NCBI GenBank assembly: GCA_900168235.1
Contig: FUZG01000002.1
Coordinates: forward strand, 124,001-188,000
DNA length: 64,000 nt
DNA from: Lachnospiraceae bacterium
Lineage (GTDB): Bacteria > Bacillota > Clostridia > Lachnospirales > Lachnospiraceae
Direction of reading: 5' to 3'
Under the pieces are notes generated by a model, which was not told the DNA's origin, did no database searches, and worked only from the letters and a program-made list of their open reading frames with translations. This document shows, piece after piece, positions 47,249 to 51,752 of this stretch. Positions within the stretch are counted from its first letter, which is position 1, and every line of letters starts with the position of its first letter. The position numbers and the translations under genes were made by a program.

Positions 47249-47277
47249 TTGTTCCTTATCGGTATTCGTGCTAAAAT
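47249..47277 (+). promoter_or_regulatory. Promoter of the FkbH/MBOAT cassette
   Basis: TTGTTC (47249-47254), 17 bp, TAAAAT (47272-47277). The ATG at 47289 is only about 5 bases from the expected start of transcription. Confidence 0.65.
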
Positions 47278-47288
47278 GTTACAACGTT

Positions 47289-48374
47289 ATGAGTAATAAT
47301 AGTGATAGGTTAAAAAAATCTGAGAAGGACGCCGGAATAAAGGCAGTAAAGCTTTGGGTCGTTTATTCTGCCGTGATTTTTATAGGCGCTCTTTTCTTTA
47401 TGTATCTCGCGTCGATGGGAGCAACTGCTTTCACGGAAATCTGCGATACGCACTACTATAATGCGTATAAAAAAGATAACCGCGGGTATATTGCGCCCTG
47501 GTACACAAACGGTCTTCATATCGTAGATGAAGGCTTTATCAATTCAATGGACAGACTGGAACATGATACGGATATTCCGGGTCATGTTTTTGTTATAGGT
47601 TCATCTCTTTCTGCGATGGAATATGATCCGGTAAAACAGCATCTAAGAAATAACTACGGGATGTATATGTTTGCAAGCGGTTCAGGTTCCTGGCGGACAA
47701 ACATTATTCTGGATAATCTAATCAGGAGTAAATGGGCGTATACTGATAAGGATATCGTGAAACTTGAAGTTTCTTATTCTACATTCAGAAATGCGGATGA
47801 CGAGACTATTGCAGAGTCATCCATCGAAAAGTGGGGAAAGTACCATGTAACAGATGACTTTCAGATAGAGGAGAATACACCTCTCCTTCAGCCGCTTTAT
47901 GATCTGAACGTAAATATGATCAAGATCCAGAATATGTGGGAGATCATTTCTACTTATTTTTCACCAACATATCGCAATGCCAAGATCGGACCGGCTAATT
48001 ACAGAAATAATTATTTTAATCACGAGGGCACTGCCGAACATATATCAGTGACTGACGACAAGATAGAGAGCATCACATCACAGATAAAGGATCTGAAGTC
48101 AAGGACAAATGTGGTGATCGAACTCTCACCTATAGCACCGGGACTTCGGGATACTGAAAATGTCAGTGAGTACATGAAGTATGTAGATGAAGAACTGAAG
48201 CCGTGGCTTAAGGAAAACAAGGTTCCGTGCCTTGATTACCGCGAGCTTTTCCCGGAAAAAGAATTTATTGACGGCGCACATTTGTCCTATAAGGCATCTC
48301 TCAGATATACGAGAAGGATGAATCAGGATTTAAATAACATGATCCGTAAGATATGGACTAAGAGAAAAAAGTAA
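47289..48374 (+). CDS. Membrane-anchored SGNH/DltD-like protein
   Basis: 361 residues. One membrane span at about 20-45, the rest extracellular. SGNH-type residues: VIGSSLSAMEYDP (Ser105/Ser106) and IDGAHLSYKAS (Asp328, His331, the DxxH pair). DltD, which completes D-alanylation of teichoic acid outside the membrane, has this architecture. A GTG at 47268, seven codons earlier, lies before the -10 element and is rejected; no ribosome site precedes ATG 47289, so the mRNA is nearly leaderless. First gene of a cassette with FkbH-like, carrier protein, MBOAT and micropeptide genes. It probably transfers the acyl group to a surface polymer; the acceptor is unknown. Confidence 0.75.
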   Translation: MSNNSDRLKKSEKDAGIKAVKLWVVYSAVIFIGALFFMYLASMGATAFTEICDTHYYNAYKKDNRGYIAPWYTNGLHIVDEGFINSMDRLEHDTDIPGHVFVIGSSLSAMEYDPVKQHLRNNYGMYMFASGSGSWRTNIILDNLIRSKWAYTDKDIVKLEVSYSTFRNADDETIAESSIEKWGKYHVTDDFQIEENTPLLQPLYDLNVNMIKIQNMWEIISTYFSPTYRNAKIGPANYRNNYFNHEGTAEHISVTDDKIESITSQIKDLKSRTNVVIELSPIAPGLRDTENVSEYMKYVDEELKPWLKENKVPCLDYRELFPEKEFIDGAHLSYKASLRYTRRMNQDLNNMIRKIWTKRKK

Positions 48375-48388
48375 GGAAGGCATTTATT

Positions 48389-50158
48389 TTGGAAAATCTT
48401 CGACAGGAATCAATATCCAGACTTCTAAGAGCTGCAAATCGTCTTCAGAAGGATCCGGCTCAGTATTCAACCGCTCCGGCGAAGGCTCCGAAAGTCAGGA
48501 TCGCTGTGCTTGGATCTCATTCCATCCAGCACTTTGTAAAAGTATTTAATCTGTTTTTGGACCGCGCAGGTATAAAGGCGGAGATATATGAAGGCGAATA
48601 CGGCGGTATCAACATGGACGTGCTTGATGAAAACTCTCCGCTGTACCAGTTTAAGCCTGAGTTCGTGCTGATATTCATGCGCTATAACGATATCCAGCTC
48701 CGTTCGGAAAAGGATCTGGAAACAGAAAAAGCATATCTTAAGAGCATATGGTCACATCTGGACAAGATCCCCGGCGTGACGATCCTTAATACAAATTTTG
48801 CGGTTCCGATGGAGAGACCTTTCGGAACACTGGAAGCGGATTACGGATATTCCACACTGACTCTTTTCAGAGAGCTGAACCTTTCTATGACAAAAGATCA
48901 TCCGAAGAATGTCCGCATTATCGATATGGAGTATCTCTCTGCGCTTTACGGCAAGGAGAACTGGTTTGATGAGGGTAACTATTACCTTACAAAGCAGGGC
49001 TTCGGTTTAGATTACCTTGGACCTGTTGCAGACGAAGTGACAAAGATGATACTTCCGTCTGTGGGTGTTGTCCGCAAGTGTCTGGTACTCGACCTTGATA
49101 ATACGCTCTGGGGCGGTGTCGTAGGCGATGACGGTCCCATGGGAATAGAGGTAGATCCTCACAATCCTCTCGGAGAGGCATACCGTGCATTTCAGTCATA
49201 CGTGCTGTCGCTAAAACAGCGCGGAGTCATCCTTGCGGTTAATTCCAAGAATGATCTGGATGTTGCAAAGGAGCCCTTTGAGAAAAATCCTGACATGGTG
49301 CTGAAGCTCTCAGATATTGCATGCTTTGTAGCAAACTGGCAGGATAAAGCAAGTAACATGGCTTACATAGCAAAGAAGCTGAATATCGGAATGGATTCAC
49401 TGGTGTTCTTTGACGATAATCCGGCAGAGCGCGAGATCATCCGTAAATTCTGTCCGGAAGTATGCGTGATAGACGTACCGAATGAGGCTGAGAACTATGT
49501 GAGAGCCCTTAACGAGGCATCACCTTTTGAGTGGGCTCAGATCACAAAGGAAGATATGGCGCGTTCGGATTCCTATGTGGAAAATGCGAAGCGTGAAGAA
49601 ATGGAAGCGTCCTTTGTAGACTATACAGAGTACCTGAAAGCTCTTGAAATGAAGGGTGTCACAGGACTTGTGGGCGAGGATGAGGTTGAGCGTTTTTCGC
49701 AGCTTACAAATAAGTCCAATCAGTTTAACCTGAGAACCCAGCGTTATGCGGACAGCCAGATCCGTGAGATGCTTGAAGATGACAAGAAGAGATGCATTTA
49801 CGTGTCTTTGACCGATAAGTTCACTCAGTACGGAATAATCTCATGCATCATTCTTTCTGCTCCGAATGAAGATAACGGATGCGAAGCGGATGAGTGCTTT
49901 GTAGAAAACTGGTGCATGTCATGCCGTGTACTCAAGAGATCCGTCGAACTCTATGCTTTCCGCGCGGTAATTGAAGAAGCGCGCAAGATGGGAGCAAAGC
50001 GTCTCGTTGGCGAATATATCAGAAGCAAAAAGAACAGCATGGTAGAAAATCTCCTGCCTTCTTTTGGATTCACTGTGGTGGAGAAAACAGAAGACAGAGT
50101 CAGATATACATATGATCTTGCAAAAGATCCGGAAGGAGAAGTATGGATACAAAGTTAA
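48389..50158 (+). CDS. FkbH-like protein (HAD-IIIC family, glyceryl-carrier loading type)
   Basis: 589 residues. An N-terminal SGNH-like region (about 35-230), the HAD core with DLDNTLWGGVVGDDG (Asp235, Asp237) and FFDDNPAERE, and a C-terminal GNAT-like part (about 430-580) with NKSNQFNLRTQRY. Characterised FkbH homologues take the glyceryl group of 1,3-bisphosphoglycerate, dephosphorylate it and load it on an acyl carrier protein for polyketide pathways. Here there is no polyketide synthase; the next gene is a carrier protein overlapping by 16 bases. TTG start with AAGGAAGG upstream. The loading substrate is inferred from the family. Confidence 0.88.
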   Translation: MENLRQESISRLLRAANRLQKDPAQYSTAPAKAPKVRIAVLGSHSIQHFVKVFNLFLDRAGIKAEIYEGEYGGINMDVLDENSPLYQFKPEFVLIFMRYNDIQLRSEKDLETEKAYLKSIWSHLDKIPGVTILNTNFAVPMERPFGTLEADYGYSTLTLFRELNLSMTKDHPKNVRIIDMEYLSALYGKENWFDEGNYYLTKQGFGLDYLGPVADEVTKMILPSVGVVRKCLVLDLDNTLWGGVVGDDGPMGIEVDPHNPLGEAYRAFQSYVLSLKQRGVILAVNSKNDLDVAKEPFEKNPDMVLKLSDIACFVANWQDKASNMAYIAKKLNIGMDSLVFFDDNPAEREIIRKFCPEVCVIDVPNEAENYVRALNEASPFEWAQITKEDMARSDSYVENAKREEMEASFVDYTEYLKALEMKGVTGLVGEDEVERFSQLTNKSNQFNLRTQRYADSQIREMLEDDKKRCIYVSLTDKFTQYGIISCIILSAPNEDNGCEADECFVENWCMSCRVLKRSVELYAFRAVIEEARKMGAKRLVGEYIRSKKNSMVENLLPSFGFTVVEKTEDRVRYTYDLAKDPEGEVWIQS

Positions 50159-50382
50159 AGTTAGAGCAGGTTTTTCGTGAGGTTTTTGATGATGAGGAGA
50201 TCGAGATCACTGATGATATGACAGCAGATGATATCGATGCATGGGATTCTTTGACTCACGTTCAGCTTGTTGTAGCAGTTGAAGAAGCTTTTAACTGCAA
50301 GTTCTCTACAGTAGAAGTAATGAAGCTTAAAAACGTTGGCGAGTTTATCAAATTAATTGATAGAAAGACGGGAAATGCTTAA
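50143..50382 (+). CDS. Acyl carrier protein of the FkbH cassette
   Basis: 79 residues, acidic, with the phosphopantetheine site IDAWDSLTHVQL (Ser36). It overlaps both neighbours: its start lies within the FkbH-like gene and its end within the MBOAT gene. This tight coupling says it shuttles the group loaded by the FkbH-like enzyme to the membrane acyltransferase, the role DltC plays in teichoic acid D-alanylation. Confidence 0.92.
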   Translation: MDTKLKLEQVFREVFDDEEIEITDDMTADDIDAWDSLTHVQLVVAVEEAFNCKFSTVEVMKLKNVGEFIKLIDRKTGNA

Positions 50383-51607
50383 TTTTTCAATAAGCGGACT
50401 GTTTTTTGCAGTATTAATGTTCATAACGCCGATCCTTATGAGAGTAGGGAAAAGATTTCGCCGTGAGATCTTTCTGCTGTTAAATACAGCAGTTTTCCTG
50501 CTCTGCCTGAGATCGGTCCCTGCACTGGTGATCGGAGTTTTATGGATCCTGGTGCCTTATTTTATGGCACCGGTGCTTACAAAGGCTGCAGATGAAAGCG
50601 CGGGAAAGTTACAGCACATTTTGCGTAATTTCTTCTATGTGCTGATGATCCTGTTTTTTGCCTATCTCATGCATTATGAGTGGGTGCCGTTCTTTAAGAT
50701 CCTGCCCTACAGCAATGCGGTGAAGCTCCTTGGTCTGTCATACTTCCTTTTCAGGGAGATAGACTTCACCATGCAGTACGGATATCTCAAGGAATCAGGT
50801 GTCAGGATCACACTGCCGGATTATCTGAATTATGTTTTGAATTTTTATACTGTAATGGCAGGTCCGATCCTTCGATACGAAGAATATGTGACTGATTTTT
50901 ATGATGAATCAAAAGAAGAGCTTACAGGGGACATGATCCTTCATGACCTGCACAGGATACTTTTCGGATATCTGAAGGTCTATGTGGTGTCCGCGGTATT
51001 TTCAACATGGGCAGGCTACTGGTTTGAAAGAGTCTCAACAGGTGCGGGCTTTTTCAGCATCACAGCGGAATTTCTGCTGTTTGCATTCTTTAATTCATTC
51101 TTTATCTATTTTAATTTTTCAGGTTATTGTGATGTGGTCACAGGCGGTGCGCATCTTAGCGGAATGACCTTGAGAGAGAACTTTAACCAGCCGTATCTCG
51201 CGGTGTCTCTCGTGGAATTTTGGAACCGTCATCACATTACGCTTTCTGAGTGGATAAGGGATTATATCTATAGTCCGGTGATAAAGGTGCTGATAAGCGG
51301 TTCCTTCAGAAAGAAGCTTTTTGAGGGACAGTGCATAGCGCTCTTCATCACATTCCTTGTGGCAGGTATCTGGCACGGAACGAATTTTAACTACGTGGTT
51401 TACGGATTACTGCAGGGACTCGGAATCGTTATCTCGACCCTCCGCACGAACCACATGAAGAAAAAGCTCGGCAAGAAGGGCTTCAAGGAGTTCCAGAGCA
51501 AAAAGCTCGTACGGATCGCGGAAAATGCAGCAACCTGGGCGTATATCTCAGTTTCATTCAGCTTTGTAGGATATGATGTTTGCGGTCTTATCCTTCAAAA
51601 GCTGTAA
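50375..51607 (+). CDS. DltB-like MBOAT membrane O-acyltransferase
   Basis: 410 residues, 10 or more membrane spans. The MBOAT signature is present: FWNRHHITLSEWIRDYIYSPV (His286, His287) and the catalytic histidine in IWHGTNFNYVVYGLLQG (His334). DltB and alginate AlgI have the same motifs. It should pass an acyl group from the carrier protein across the membrane. ATG 50375 is chosen; it overlaps the carrier gene by 8 bases. A TTG at 50357 is possible but lacks a ribosome site. Confidence 0.93.
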   Translation: MLNFSISGLFFAVLMFITPILMRVGKRFRREIFLLLNTAVFLLCLRSVPALVIGVLWILVPYFMAPVLTKAADESAGKLQHILRNFFYVLMILFFAYLMHYEWVPFFKILPYSNAVKLLGLSYFLFREIDFTMQYGYLKESGVRITLPDYLNYVLNFYTVMAGPILRYEEYVTDFYDESKEELTGDMILHDLHRILFGYLKVYVVSAVFSTWAGYWFERVSTGAGFFSITAEFLLFAFFNSFFIYFNFSGYCDVVTGGAHLSGMTLRENFNQPYLAVSLVEFWNRHHITLSEWIRDYIYSPVIKVLISGSFRKKLFEGQCIALFITFLVAGIWHGTNFNYVVYGLLQGLGIVISTLRTNHMKKKLGKKGFKEFQSKKLVRIAENAATWAYISVSFSFVGYDVCGLILQKL

Positions 51608-51626
51608 TAATCAGAGGACATGATGT

Positions 51627-51752
51627 ATGATTAAACTGTTTGATCGACTGCCTGTGTGGGCACGGCTCATCTGGCTTTCATTGGAACTGGCGATAGTTTT
51701 ATTTGCTATATTTATGGGTACAAAGACCACAATTCTCTATCAGGGATTTTGA
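51627..51752 (+). CDS. DltX-like 41-residue single-span micropeptide
   Basis: A small frame 19 bases after the MBOAT stop, with AGAGGA 8 bases before its ATG. The product starts MIKLFDRLPVWARLIW, has one hydrophobic helix (about 14-31) and ends TKTTILYQGF. DltX of the Dlt system is a similar-sized single-span peptide whose C-terminal aromatic motif with a conserved Tyr is needed for, and has been reported to carry, the acyl group between DltB and DltD. The Tyr38 in LYQGF would be the equivalent. Size, topology, position and terminal motif agree; there is no alignment beyond that. Confidence 0.7.
   Translation: MIKLFDRLPVWARLIWLSLELAIVLFAIFMGTKTTILYQGF

Follow-up and report, generated by a model that had tools for sequence, protein, structure and literature searches.

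An FkbH-containing, Dlt-like five-gene cassette in Lachnospiraceae, probably for acylation of the cell envelope

Composition of the cassette

In a 64,000-nt stretch of contig FUZG01000002.1 from a Lachnospiraceae bacterium (hereinafter the window; host genome assembly, 3.79 Mb in 28 contigs), positions 47249-51752 hold five close-set plus-strand genes, arranged head to tail with two overlaps as read from the translations of open reading frames (ORFs). They encode an SGNH/DltD-like anchored protein, an FkbH, an acyl carrier protein (ACP), a DltB-like membrane-bound O-acyltransferase (MBOAT) and a 41-residue DltX-like peptide (Table 1). ORFs and family matches confirm this Dlt-like composition, which the original prediction had read from the sequence alone. 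The start of the ACP gene overlaps the end of the FkbH gene by 16 nt, the start of the MBOAT gene overlaps the end of the ACP gene by 8 nt, and the peptide gene lies 19 nt downstream of the MBOAT stop codon.

Table 1. Features of the cassette, in window coordinates
Feature	Position	Strand	Details
Probable promoter	47249..47277	+	TTGTTC, 17 nt, TAAAAT, with TGC ahead of TAAAAT; hexamers and spacing identical in L001, L002 and L003
SGNH/DltD-like anchored acyltransferase (putative)	47289..48374	+	ATG start; in-frame GTG at 47268
FkbH	48389..50158	+	TTG start; FkbH_N domain residues 37-221, HAD-IIIC/FkbH region 228-562; DLDNTLW motif, MSCRV cysteine
ACP	50143..50382	+	PF00550; phosphopantetheine Ser36 in DSL
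DltB-like MBOAT	50375..51607	+	ATG start; 410 residues; no shuttle fused to its C-terminus, unlike other MBOATs
DltX-like membrane peptide, 41 residues	51627..51752	+	C-terminal acyl-shuttle motif ILYQGF, Tyr38

The second protein scores 276.5 bits against the FkbH model TIGR01686 (curated cut-off 146.65) and contains an FkbH_N domain (PF21211, 3.3e-14). It resembles the solved structure PDB 3slr (E 3.3e-63), deposited as an uncharacterised protein, and its own structure model has a predicted local distance difference test score (pLDDT) of 73.9 and a predicted template-modelling score of 0.47. All 16 FkbHs compared (window included) have the HAD DxDxT motif and the SCR cysteine; among them are FkbHs of polyketide synthase (PKS) clusters and one encoded in an operon on a Methylosinus plasmid. 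That operon is annotated as KAS III, HAD-IIIC phosphatase, ACP, E2, monooxygenase, alpha/beta hydrolase and PKS, and we take it to be a tetronate glycerate operon. The conserved Cys of SCR (MSCRV) is probably the acyl carrier of FkbH. The ACP matches the PP-binding family (PF00550) at 31 bits (cut-off 20.8), and Ser36 in its DSL motif, at the place of the phosphopantetheine Ser of carrier proteins, is the same in all 10 ACPs of the alignment (window included); against the DltC model NF003464 it reaches 18.3 bits, below the cut-off of 68. No dehydrogenase, methyltransferase or adenylation (AMP-binding) enzyme was recognised within the cassette, nor any AMP-binding gene around it, and the gene content supports FkbH as the sole acyl-activating gene in the cassette.

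The MBOAT matches PF03062 with 70.3 bits and aligns with the DltB structures 6bug and 8jem (E 4.6e-29 to 6bug), the alignment running through the WHG histidine region. The DltX-like peptide has a single hydrophobic segment (hydropathy 2.2). All seven aligned peptides (window included) end in [IV]LYQ[GS]F, with Tyr38 and the terminal Phe invariant; this ending comes near the FXYXXF acyl-shuttle motif of PMC12148441. The pairing of an MBOAT with a C-terminal shuttle motif, which exists in split and fused forms, is provided here by the MBOAT and a separate peptide.

The first protein has a single N-terminal hydrophobic segment (19-residue hydropathy 2.2). It matches no Pfam family above cut-off, DltD included (GDSL_2, E 0.09), and a sequence search among solved structures gave no credible relative. 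GSS104-106, D328 and H331 are invariant in six of six aligned sequences (window included), so that Ser106 (GSSL), Asp328 and His331 are the candidate catalytic triad. The structure model is of low confidence (mean pLDDT 47.9), and its structural matches are SGNH hydrolases, with a best Z of 9.8, PatB at Z 7.1 and DltD at Z 6.8 over 193 residues. In a Foldseek search with the same low-confidence model, DltD entries occupy ranks 2-7 and 10 behind a designed scaffold at rank 1; no match is as good as E 0.001, and by query length the TM-scores for DltD come to ~0.3. Because the GSS, D and H residues are invariant and the model matches SGNH hydrolases and DltD, we tentatively assign the protein to the SGNH type.

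The original prediction placed all five genes behind one promoter. The TTGTTC-17 nt-TAAAAT element is conserved in L001-L003 (handles beginning with L denote loci), which favours this claim; a consensus scan of the window, which missed the TTGTTC/TAAAAT element, gave no excess of promoters (14 sites against 14.2 expected). From these data, a single promoter for all five genes is plausible only. The upstream flank is presumably tadA-like, and downstream lie what we take, from the translations, to be a nucleotidyltransferase, galE and ftsH. No gene for a PKS or nonribosomal peptide synthetase (NRPS) was recognised among the neighbours.

Proposed transfer pathway

In the FkbH family the glyceryl unit has the D configuration. 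The activity proposed for FkbH enzymes is to charge an ACP with glyceryl, 1,3-bisphosphoglycerate being the donor (PMC7489565). In the Dlt relay the acyl group passes from carrier protein to MBOAT, shuttle Tyr, SGNH Ser and polymer, and a shuttle-Tyr relay is described for both Dlt and PatAB (PMC12148441).

Joining FkbH loading to the Dlt relay gives the best explanation of the locus, and we consider it probable that the cassette is an FkbH-fed, Dlt-like envelope acylation machine which transfers D-glyceryl to an outer envelope polymer. Specifically, FkbH would use the acyl phosphate of 1,3-bisphosphoglycerate as its source of D-glyceryl, remove both phosphates and hand the unit, probably via its MSCRV Cys, to the phosphopantetheine arm on ACP Ser36. 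The DltB-like MBOAT would then carry glyceryl across the membrane to Tyr38 of the DltX-like peptide, and Ser106 of the anchored SGNH protein would accept it from Tyr38 and esterify the outer polymer, perhaps (lipo)teichoic acid or a surface polysaccharide. Because no tailoring enzyme was recognised in the cassette, glyceryl should pass on unchanged. The Dlt-like logic anticipated by the original prediction is upheld at the level of its parts: a carrier protein, an MBOAT aligned to the DltB histidine region, a DltX-type peptide and an anchored SGNH-type protein.

Conservation of the five-gene order

The order DltD-FkbH-ACP-MBOAT-DltX is kept in L001-L004, with the same neighbours on both sides, and recurs in two further genera (L014 and L019), where the same nucleotidyltransferase follows. 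The search for a conserved order across genera, suggested with the original prediction as a check, thus came out in its favour. In L005, FkbH stands alone at the tadA place, while DltD-ACP-MBOAT-DltX lie together on another contig of the same genome. With L001 as the comparison, genes 1-4 have dN/dS ratios of 0.03-0.08; the peptide, compared with L004, has 0.08. The values are rough, with dS of 1.1-2.8, and for the peptide, whose dS is not computable against L001 and L003, the L004 value alone is usable. By this comparison, the genes tested are under purifying selection. The cross-genus order, the gene overlaps and purifying selection rule out a chance neighbourhood.

Among 299 Lachnospiraceae genomes, a split-type MBOAT more than 50% identical to that of the window occurs in three, all with a linked cassette, and a further four, 29-36% identical, pass E 1e-33. 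Possession of an MBOAT is in itself uninformative, as 277 of the 299 genomes have one (at most six candidate stretches scored per genome). In a tree of FkbHs, the clade of the window FkbH comprises 11 rows with a support of 100 in the Shimodaira-Hasegawa-like approximate likelihood ratio test (SH-aLRT). The tree was made by a quick method with SH-aLRT only, gave long-branch warnings for L084, L050 and L081, and omits eight rows: L009 and L010 (duplicates), L002 and L003 (near-copies), L083, L042, L036 and L026.

FkbH, ACP and MBOAT at other loci

FkbH is found above cut-off in 63 of the 299 family genomes. All 71 FkbH loci above cut-off outside the host genome were fetched (the three of the host itself are not counted), and the survey set consists of the 54 with at least 5 kb on each side, 17 of the 71 having under 5 kb on one side. 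An ACP lies within 3 kb on the same strand in 48 of the 54 loci, and an MBOAT within 5 kb in 27, in 26 of these on the same strand. MBOAT linkage follows the length of FkbH: 27/41 FkbHs of at least 565 residues have an MBOAT within 5 kb versus 0/13 shorter ones. Measured over 49 loci, 24 MBOATs lie within 1.5 kb of FkbH versus six at 1.5-7.5 kb. A rough binomial estimate, which assumes 12 MBOATs per 3 Mb genome and treats loci that are not independent, expects an MBOAT within 5 kb in 2.5 of the 54 loci, versus the 27 observed.

Two further groups of loci were noted. Short FkbHs of 536-553 residues, with their own ACP and no MBOAT nearby, occur in L018, L025, L038, L039, L045, L049, L057, L058 and L077, and these nine form one supported tree branch. 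In the other group, FkbH-ACP is accompanied by a MaoC-like gene and in some cases an SDR-like one (both by eye), whether or not an MBOAT is there; it comprises L020:7293-12196, L007:11508-12208, L008:6666-10991 and L097:8166-12392.

Where an MBOAT lies near FkbH, the shuttle is mostly fused to it: 31 of 36 MBOATs end in the shuttle motif, versus none of 773 other ORFs of at least 150 residues. The five without a fused motif are in L014, L019, L032, L033 and L037. Those of L014 and L019 are of DltB size and, of the five, these two have a separate peptide; that of L032 ends in PAYIVF, with the Tyr in place. The MBOAT at L033:5712-7439 has no C-terminal motif, and a second L033 MBOAT has FIYQGF; the MBOAT at L037:42-1412, near FkbH, likewise has none. 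At L063:6724-8251 the MBOAT appears as two ORFs, one of 415 and one of 80 residues.

The pattern extends beyond Firmicutes. A Rhodobacteraceae plasmid (L089) carries an annotated ACP, HAD-IIIC phosphatase and MBOAT in a row, the MBOAT ending in FIYFNF, and pSymB of S. meliloti 1021 (L088) carries an MBOAT ending in FLYQGF, a 409-residue ORF and FkbH in two frames. These two overlapping frames (L088:6167-8229) correspond to an FkbH that, among the S. meliloti matches listed, is in one piece in several and in two pieces in two more. Pfam found nothing on the candidate partner proteins of L088 and L089.

Candidate SGNH partners elsewhere were sought with Pfam in 30 proteins, five of window type and 25 MBOAT neighbours, most of the latter chosen by length and position and several plainly non-SGNH. 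ALGX was found in four, GDSL_2 in three, DHHW in three, DUF6056 in two and other families singly. Only some of the fused loci thus have a demonstrated SGNH partner. When the SGNH family of the window was compared by hhalign with its SGNH-like counterparts in L086 and L013, the result was uninformative (probability 0.3 and 2.9).

The original prediction had named no described system of this composition in Lachnospiraceae. By the survey the cassette is not unique, because FkbH-ACP-MBOAT sets are common in the family and one lies on an alphaproteobacterial plasmid, the shuttle being mostly fused. The survey also bears on a different explanation, namely that the MBOAT uses acyl-CoA like PatA, and FkbH and ACP belong to an unrelated pathway sharing the operon. 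PMC12148441 says that MBOAT/SGNH pathways except Dlt evidently use acyl-CoA and no carrier protein, and FkbH-ACP without an MBOAT is common; against this stand the gene overlaps, the adjacency in many genera, the restriction of MBOAT linkage to long FkbHs and the persistence of DltD-ACP-MBOAT-DltX as one block in the L005 genome, which make an acyl-CoA donor very improbable.

Related cassettes and polymer genes in the host genome

The host genome has three FkbHs, and the other two (L012 and L013) also lie with an ACP and an MBOAT. Because these MBOATs end in shuttle motifs (FIYFQF in L012 and FIYAGF in L013), the shuttle is fused there. At each of the two loci a neighbouring protein is SGNH-like by eye. 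At L013:2065-8449 (contig C5), ACP and FkbH are separated by a methyltransferase and a glyoxalase-family protein, and the L089 plasmid locus also carries a VOC-family gene; the extra genes of L013 and L089 may reflect a modified glyceryl cargo. Sister loci with the methyltransferase (L013) or with MaoC/SDR-like genes (L020) may likewise pass on changed units.

Such genes bear on whether the window cassette runs the same relay with another cargo, that is, with a three-carbon unit altered before transfer, or with D-lactyl or another acid instead of D-glyceryl. A metabolic-modelling paper gives D-lactate-ACP as the product of an FkbH domain (PMC7901079), and extra enzymes accompany FkbH-ACP in L020 (MaoC-like and SDR-like), L007 (MaoC-like, by eye as in L020) and L013 (methyltransferase and glyoxalase-family protein). 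We recognised no such enzyme within or next to the cassette of the window, nor at its orthologues L014 and L019, and regard another cargo as unlikely.

A loader of a different kind is present in the same genome. L086:4795-10335 (contig C11) encodes an AMP-binding enzyme (PF00501), a 76-residue ACP and an MBOAT ending in MIYAKF, together with an SGNH-like protein (by eye) and a pyridoxal phosphate (PLP) decarboxylase-fold enzyme, and thus forms a fused-shuttle Dlt-like cassette. No DltA above the TIGR01734 cut-off was found in the nine genomes tested. The original claim that FkbH replaces DltA therefore stands for the window cassette only and not genome-wide, because the same genome has this adenylation-domain/ACP/MBOAT cassette.

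The host genome encodes possible polymer makers: three LtaS-like members of the sulfatase family, each about 600-640 residues long, and one protein of the CDP-glycerol glycerophosphotransferase family that scores above its cut-off. One LtaS-like protein (L101:3862-5673, contig C5) lies ~5.4 kb upstream of the L013 cassette, amid sugar genes (by eye). The possible polymer makers speak against the view that glyceryl is exported not to a wall polymer but to a small molecule, a glycolipid or a surface protein, as does the lack of any recognised PKS/NRPS gene near the cassette. In addition, an SGNH partner with an acyl-Tyr shuttle is described for envelope polymer acylation (PMC12148441). The non-polymer view draws on a cyanobacterial NRPS cluster that pairs an FkbH domain with a putative MBOAT, for which sugar acylation of the product is proposed (PMC13122637), and on the fact that the window surroundings name no polymer. 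MBOATs as a family also acylate lipids and proteins. On balance a non-polymer acceptor seems quite unlikely.

Discussion

Several points weigh against the reading of the cassette as an FkbH-fed, Dlt-like machine for D-glyceryl. At the level of the proteins, the MBOAT is far under the DltB equivalog cut-off (TIGR04091, 164.5 versus 375 bits), and the DltX-type motif of the peptide deviates at its first position, which is I/V and not the F of FXYXXF. The SGNH assignment is tentative, drawing on motifs and a low-confidence model, and glyceryl as the cargo is something that we infer. The window neighbours are housekeeping genes, and the neighbourhood therefore names no acceptor polymer. At the level of the family, 27 of the 54 surveyed FkbH loci have no MBOAT within 5 kb. 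The MBOAT label on the FkbH tree requires 12 changes versus a shuffled mean of 24.3, and is therefore clustered, yet the link has been gained or lost several times. In a phylum sample of 299 genomes, ten have FkbH, namely the host genome, G207 of the family survey and eight others; at the nine FkbH loci of these eight other Bacillota genomes no MBOAT was detected nearby, the flanks of L093 and L100 being short.

The remaining points concern the closest relatives. FkbHs of the same clade occur without a split-type MBOAT in genomes G079 (no ACP or MBOAT near), G250 (ACP, no MBOAT) and G254 (ACP, then the contig end). In the metagenome-assembled genomes of L006 and L007, whose completeness is unstated, the best MBOAT is distant (E 7e-31 and 6e-30). 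The original prediction had named homologous loci with missing genes as evidence that would count against it, and these five cases touch it in part; the linked order in L001-L004, L014 and L019 stands on the other side.

More broadly, we lean slightly towards the view that FkbH and a carrier protein form a general donor module for glycerate export by MBOAT/SGNH machines. D-glyceryl envelope esters would get their acyl group directly from 1,3-bisphosphoglycerate, with no ATP-dependent activation step, and surface modification would therefore track glycolytic flux; loaders (FkbH or adenylation domain) and shuttles (split or fused) would be interchangeable, and for many fused-shuttle MBOATs the donor would be a carrier protein and not acyl-CoA. 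If the reading of the cassette is right, MBOAT/SGNH envelope acylation gains a third kind of donor besides D-alanyl-ACP and acyl-CoA, surface modification is tied directly to a glycolytic intermediate, and glycerate esters are predicted on the surfaces of bacteria in gut and rumen. PMC12148441 states that, Dlt apart, MBOAT/SGNH pathways have no carrier protein. In the surveyed loci, fused-shuttle MBOATs often stand next to a dedicated ACP, and we therefore argue against this generalisation as it is worded there; the exceptions are the fused-shuttle MBOATs that adjoin FkbH-ACP and the one that adjoins the AMP-binding enzyme and ACP in L086.

Comparison with known systems

In the literature searched, where results were seen partly among the matches listed and most subscription journals were outside the scope, no paper joining FkbH to envelope acylation and none linking HAD-IIIC with MBOAT was found.

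In the tetronate glycerate and methoxymalonyl-ACP operons, FkbH and a stand-alone ACP occur with the core motifs shared by the cassette, and the proposed donor is likewise 1,3-bisphosphoglycerate (PMC7489565). Their glyceryl unit is passed to FabH-like enzymes or dehydrogenases for polyketides, whereas that of the cassette would go to an MBOAT and outside the cell. PatA/PatB-type acetylation also combines an MBOAT with an SGNH protein, and the sister FkbH loci fuse FxYxxF to the MBOAT C-terminus as in PatA. In contrast to the FkbH loci, which own a dedicated ACP, PatA/PatB is said to use acyl-CoA with no carrier (PMC12148441). The L086 cassette likewise has an ACP, an MBOAT (C-terminal MIYAKF) and a neighbouring SGNH-like protein (by eye), but its loader is an AMP-binding enzyme (PF00501) beside a PLP decarboxylase-fold enzyme.

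The Dlt system (DltABCDX), by which Gram-positive bacteria attach D-alanine to the cell wall, resembles the cassette in its carrier protein, its DltB-type MBOAT of ~400 residues, its separate membrane microprotein with a C-terminal acyl-shuttle Tyr and its anchored SGNH-type protein, a tentative assignment in the cassette. It differs in that FkbH stands where Dlt has the DltA adenylation ligase, in gene order (DltD-FkbH-ACP-MBOAT-DltX versus dltXABCD), in the scores of the cassette proteins, which stay under the cut-offs of the DltB and DltC models, and in the predicted cargo, glyceryl versus D-alanyl. Because DltA is absent from the operon and the MBOAT falls short of the DltB model, we place the cassette among MBOAT-SGNH systems of Dlt-like working and not within Dlt itself.

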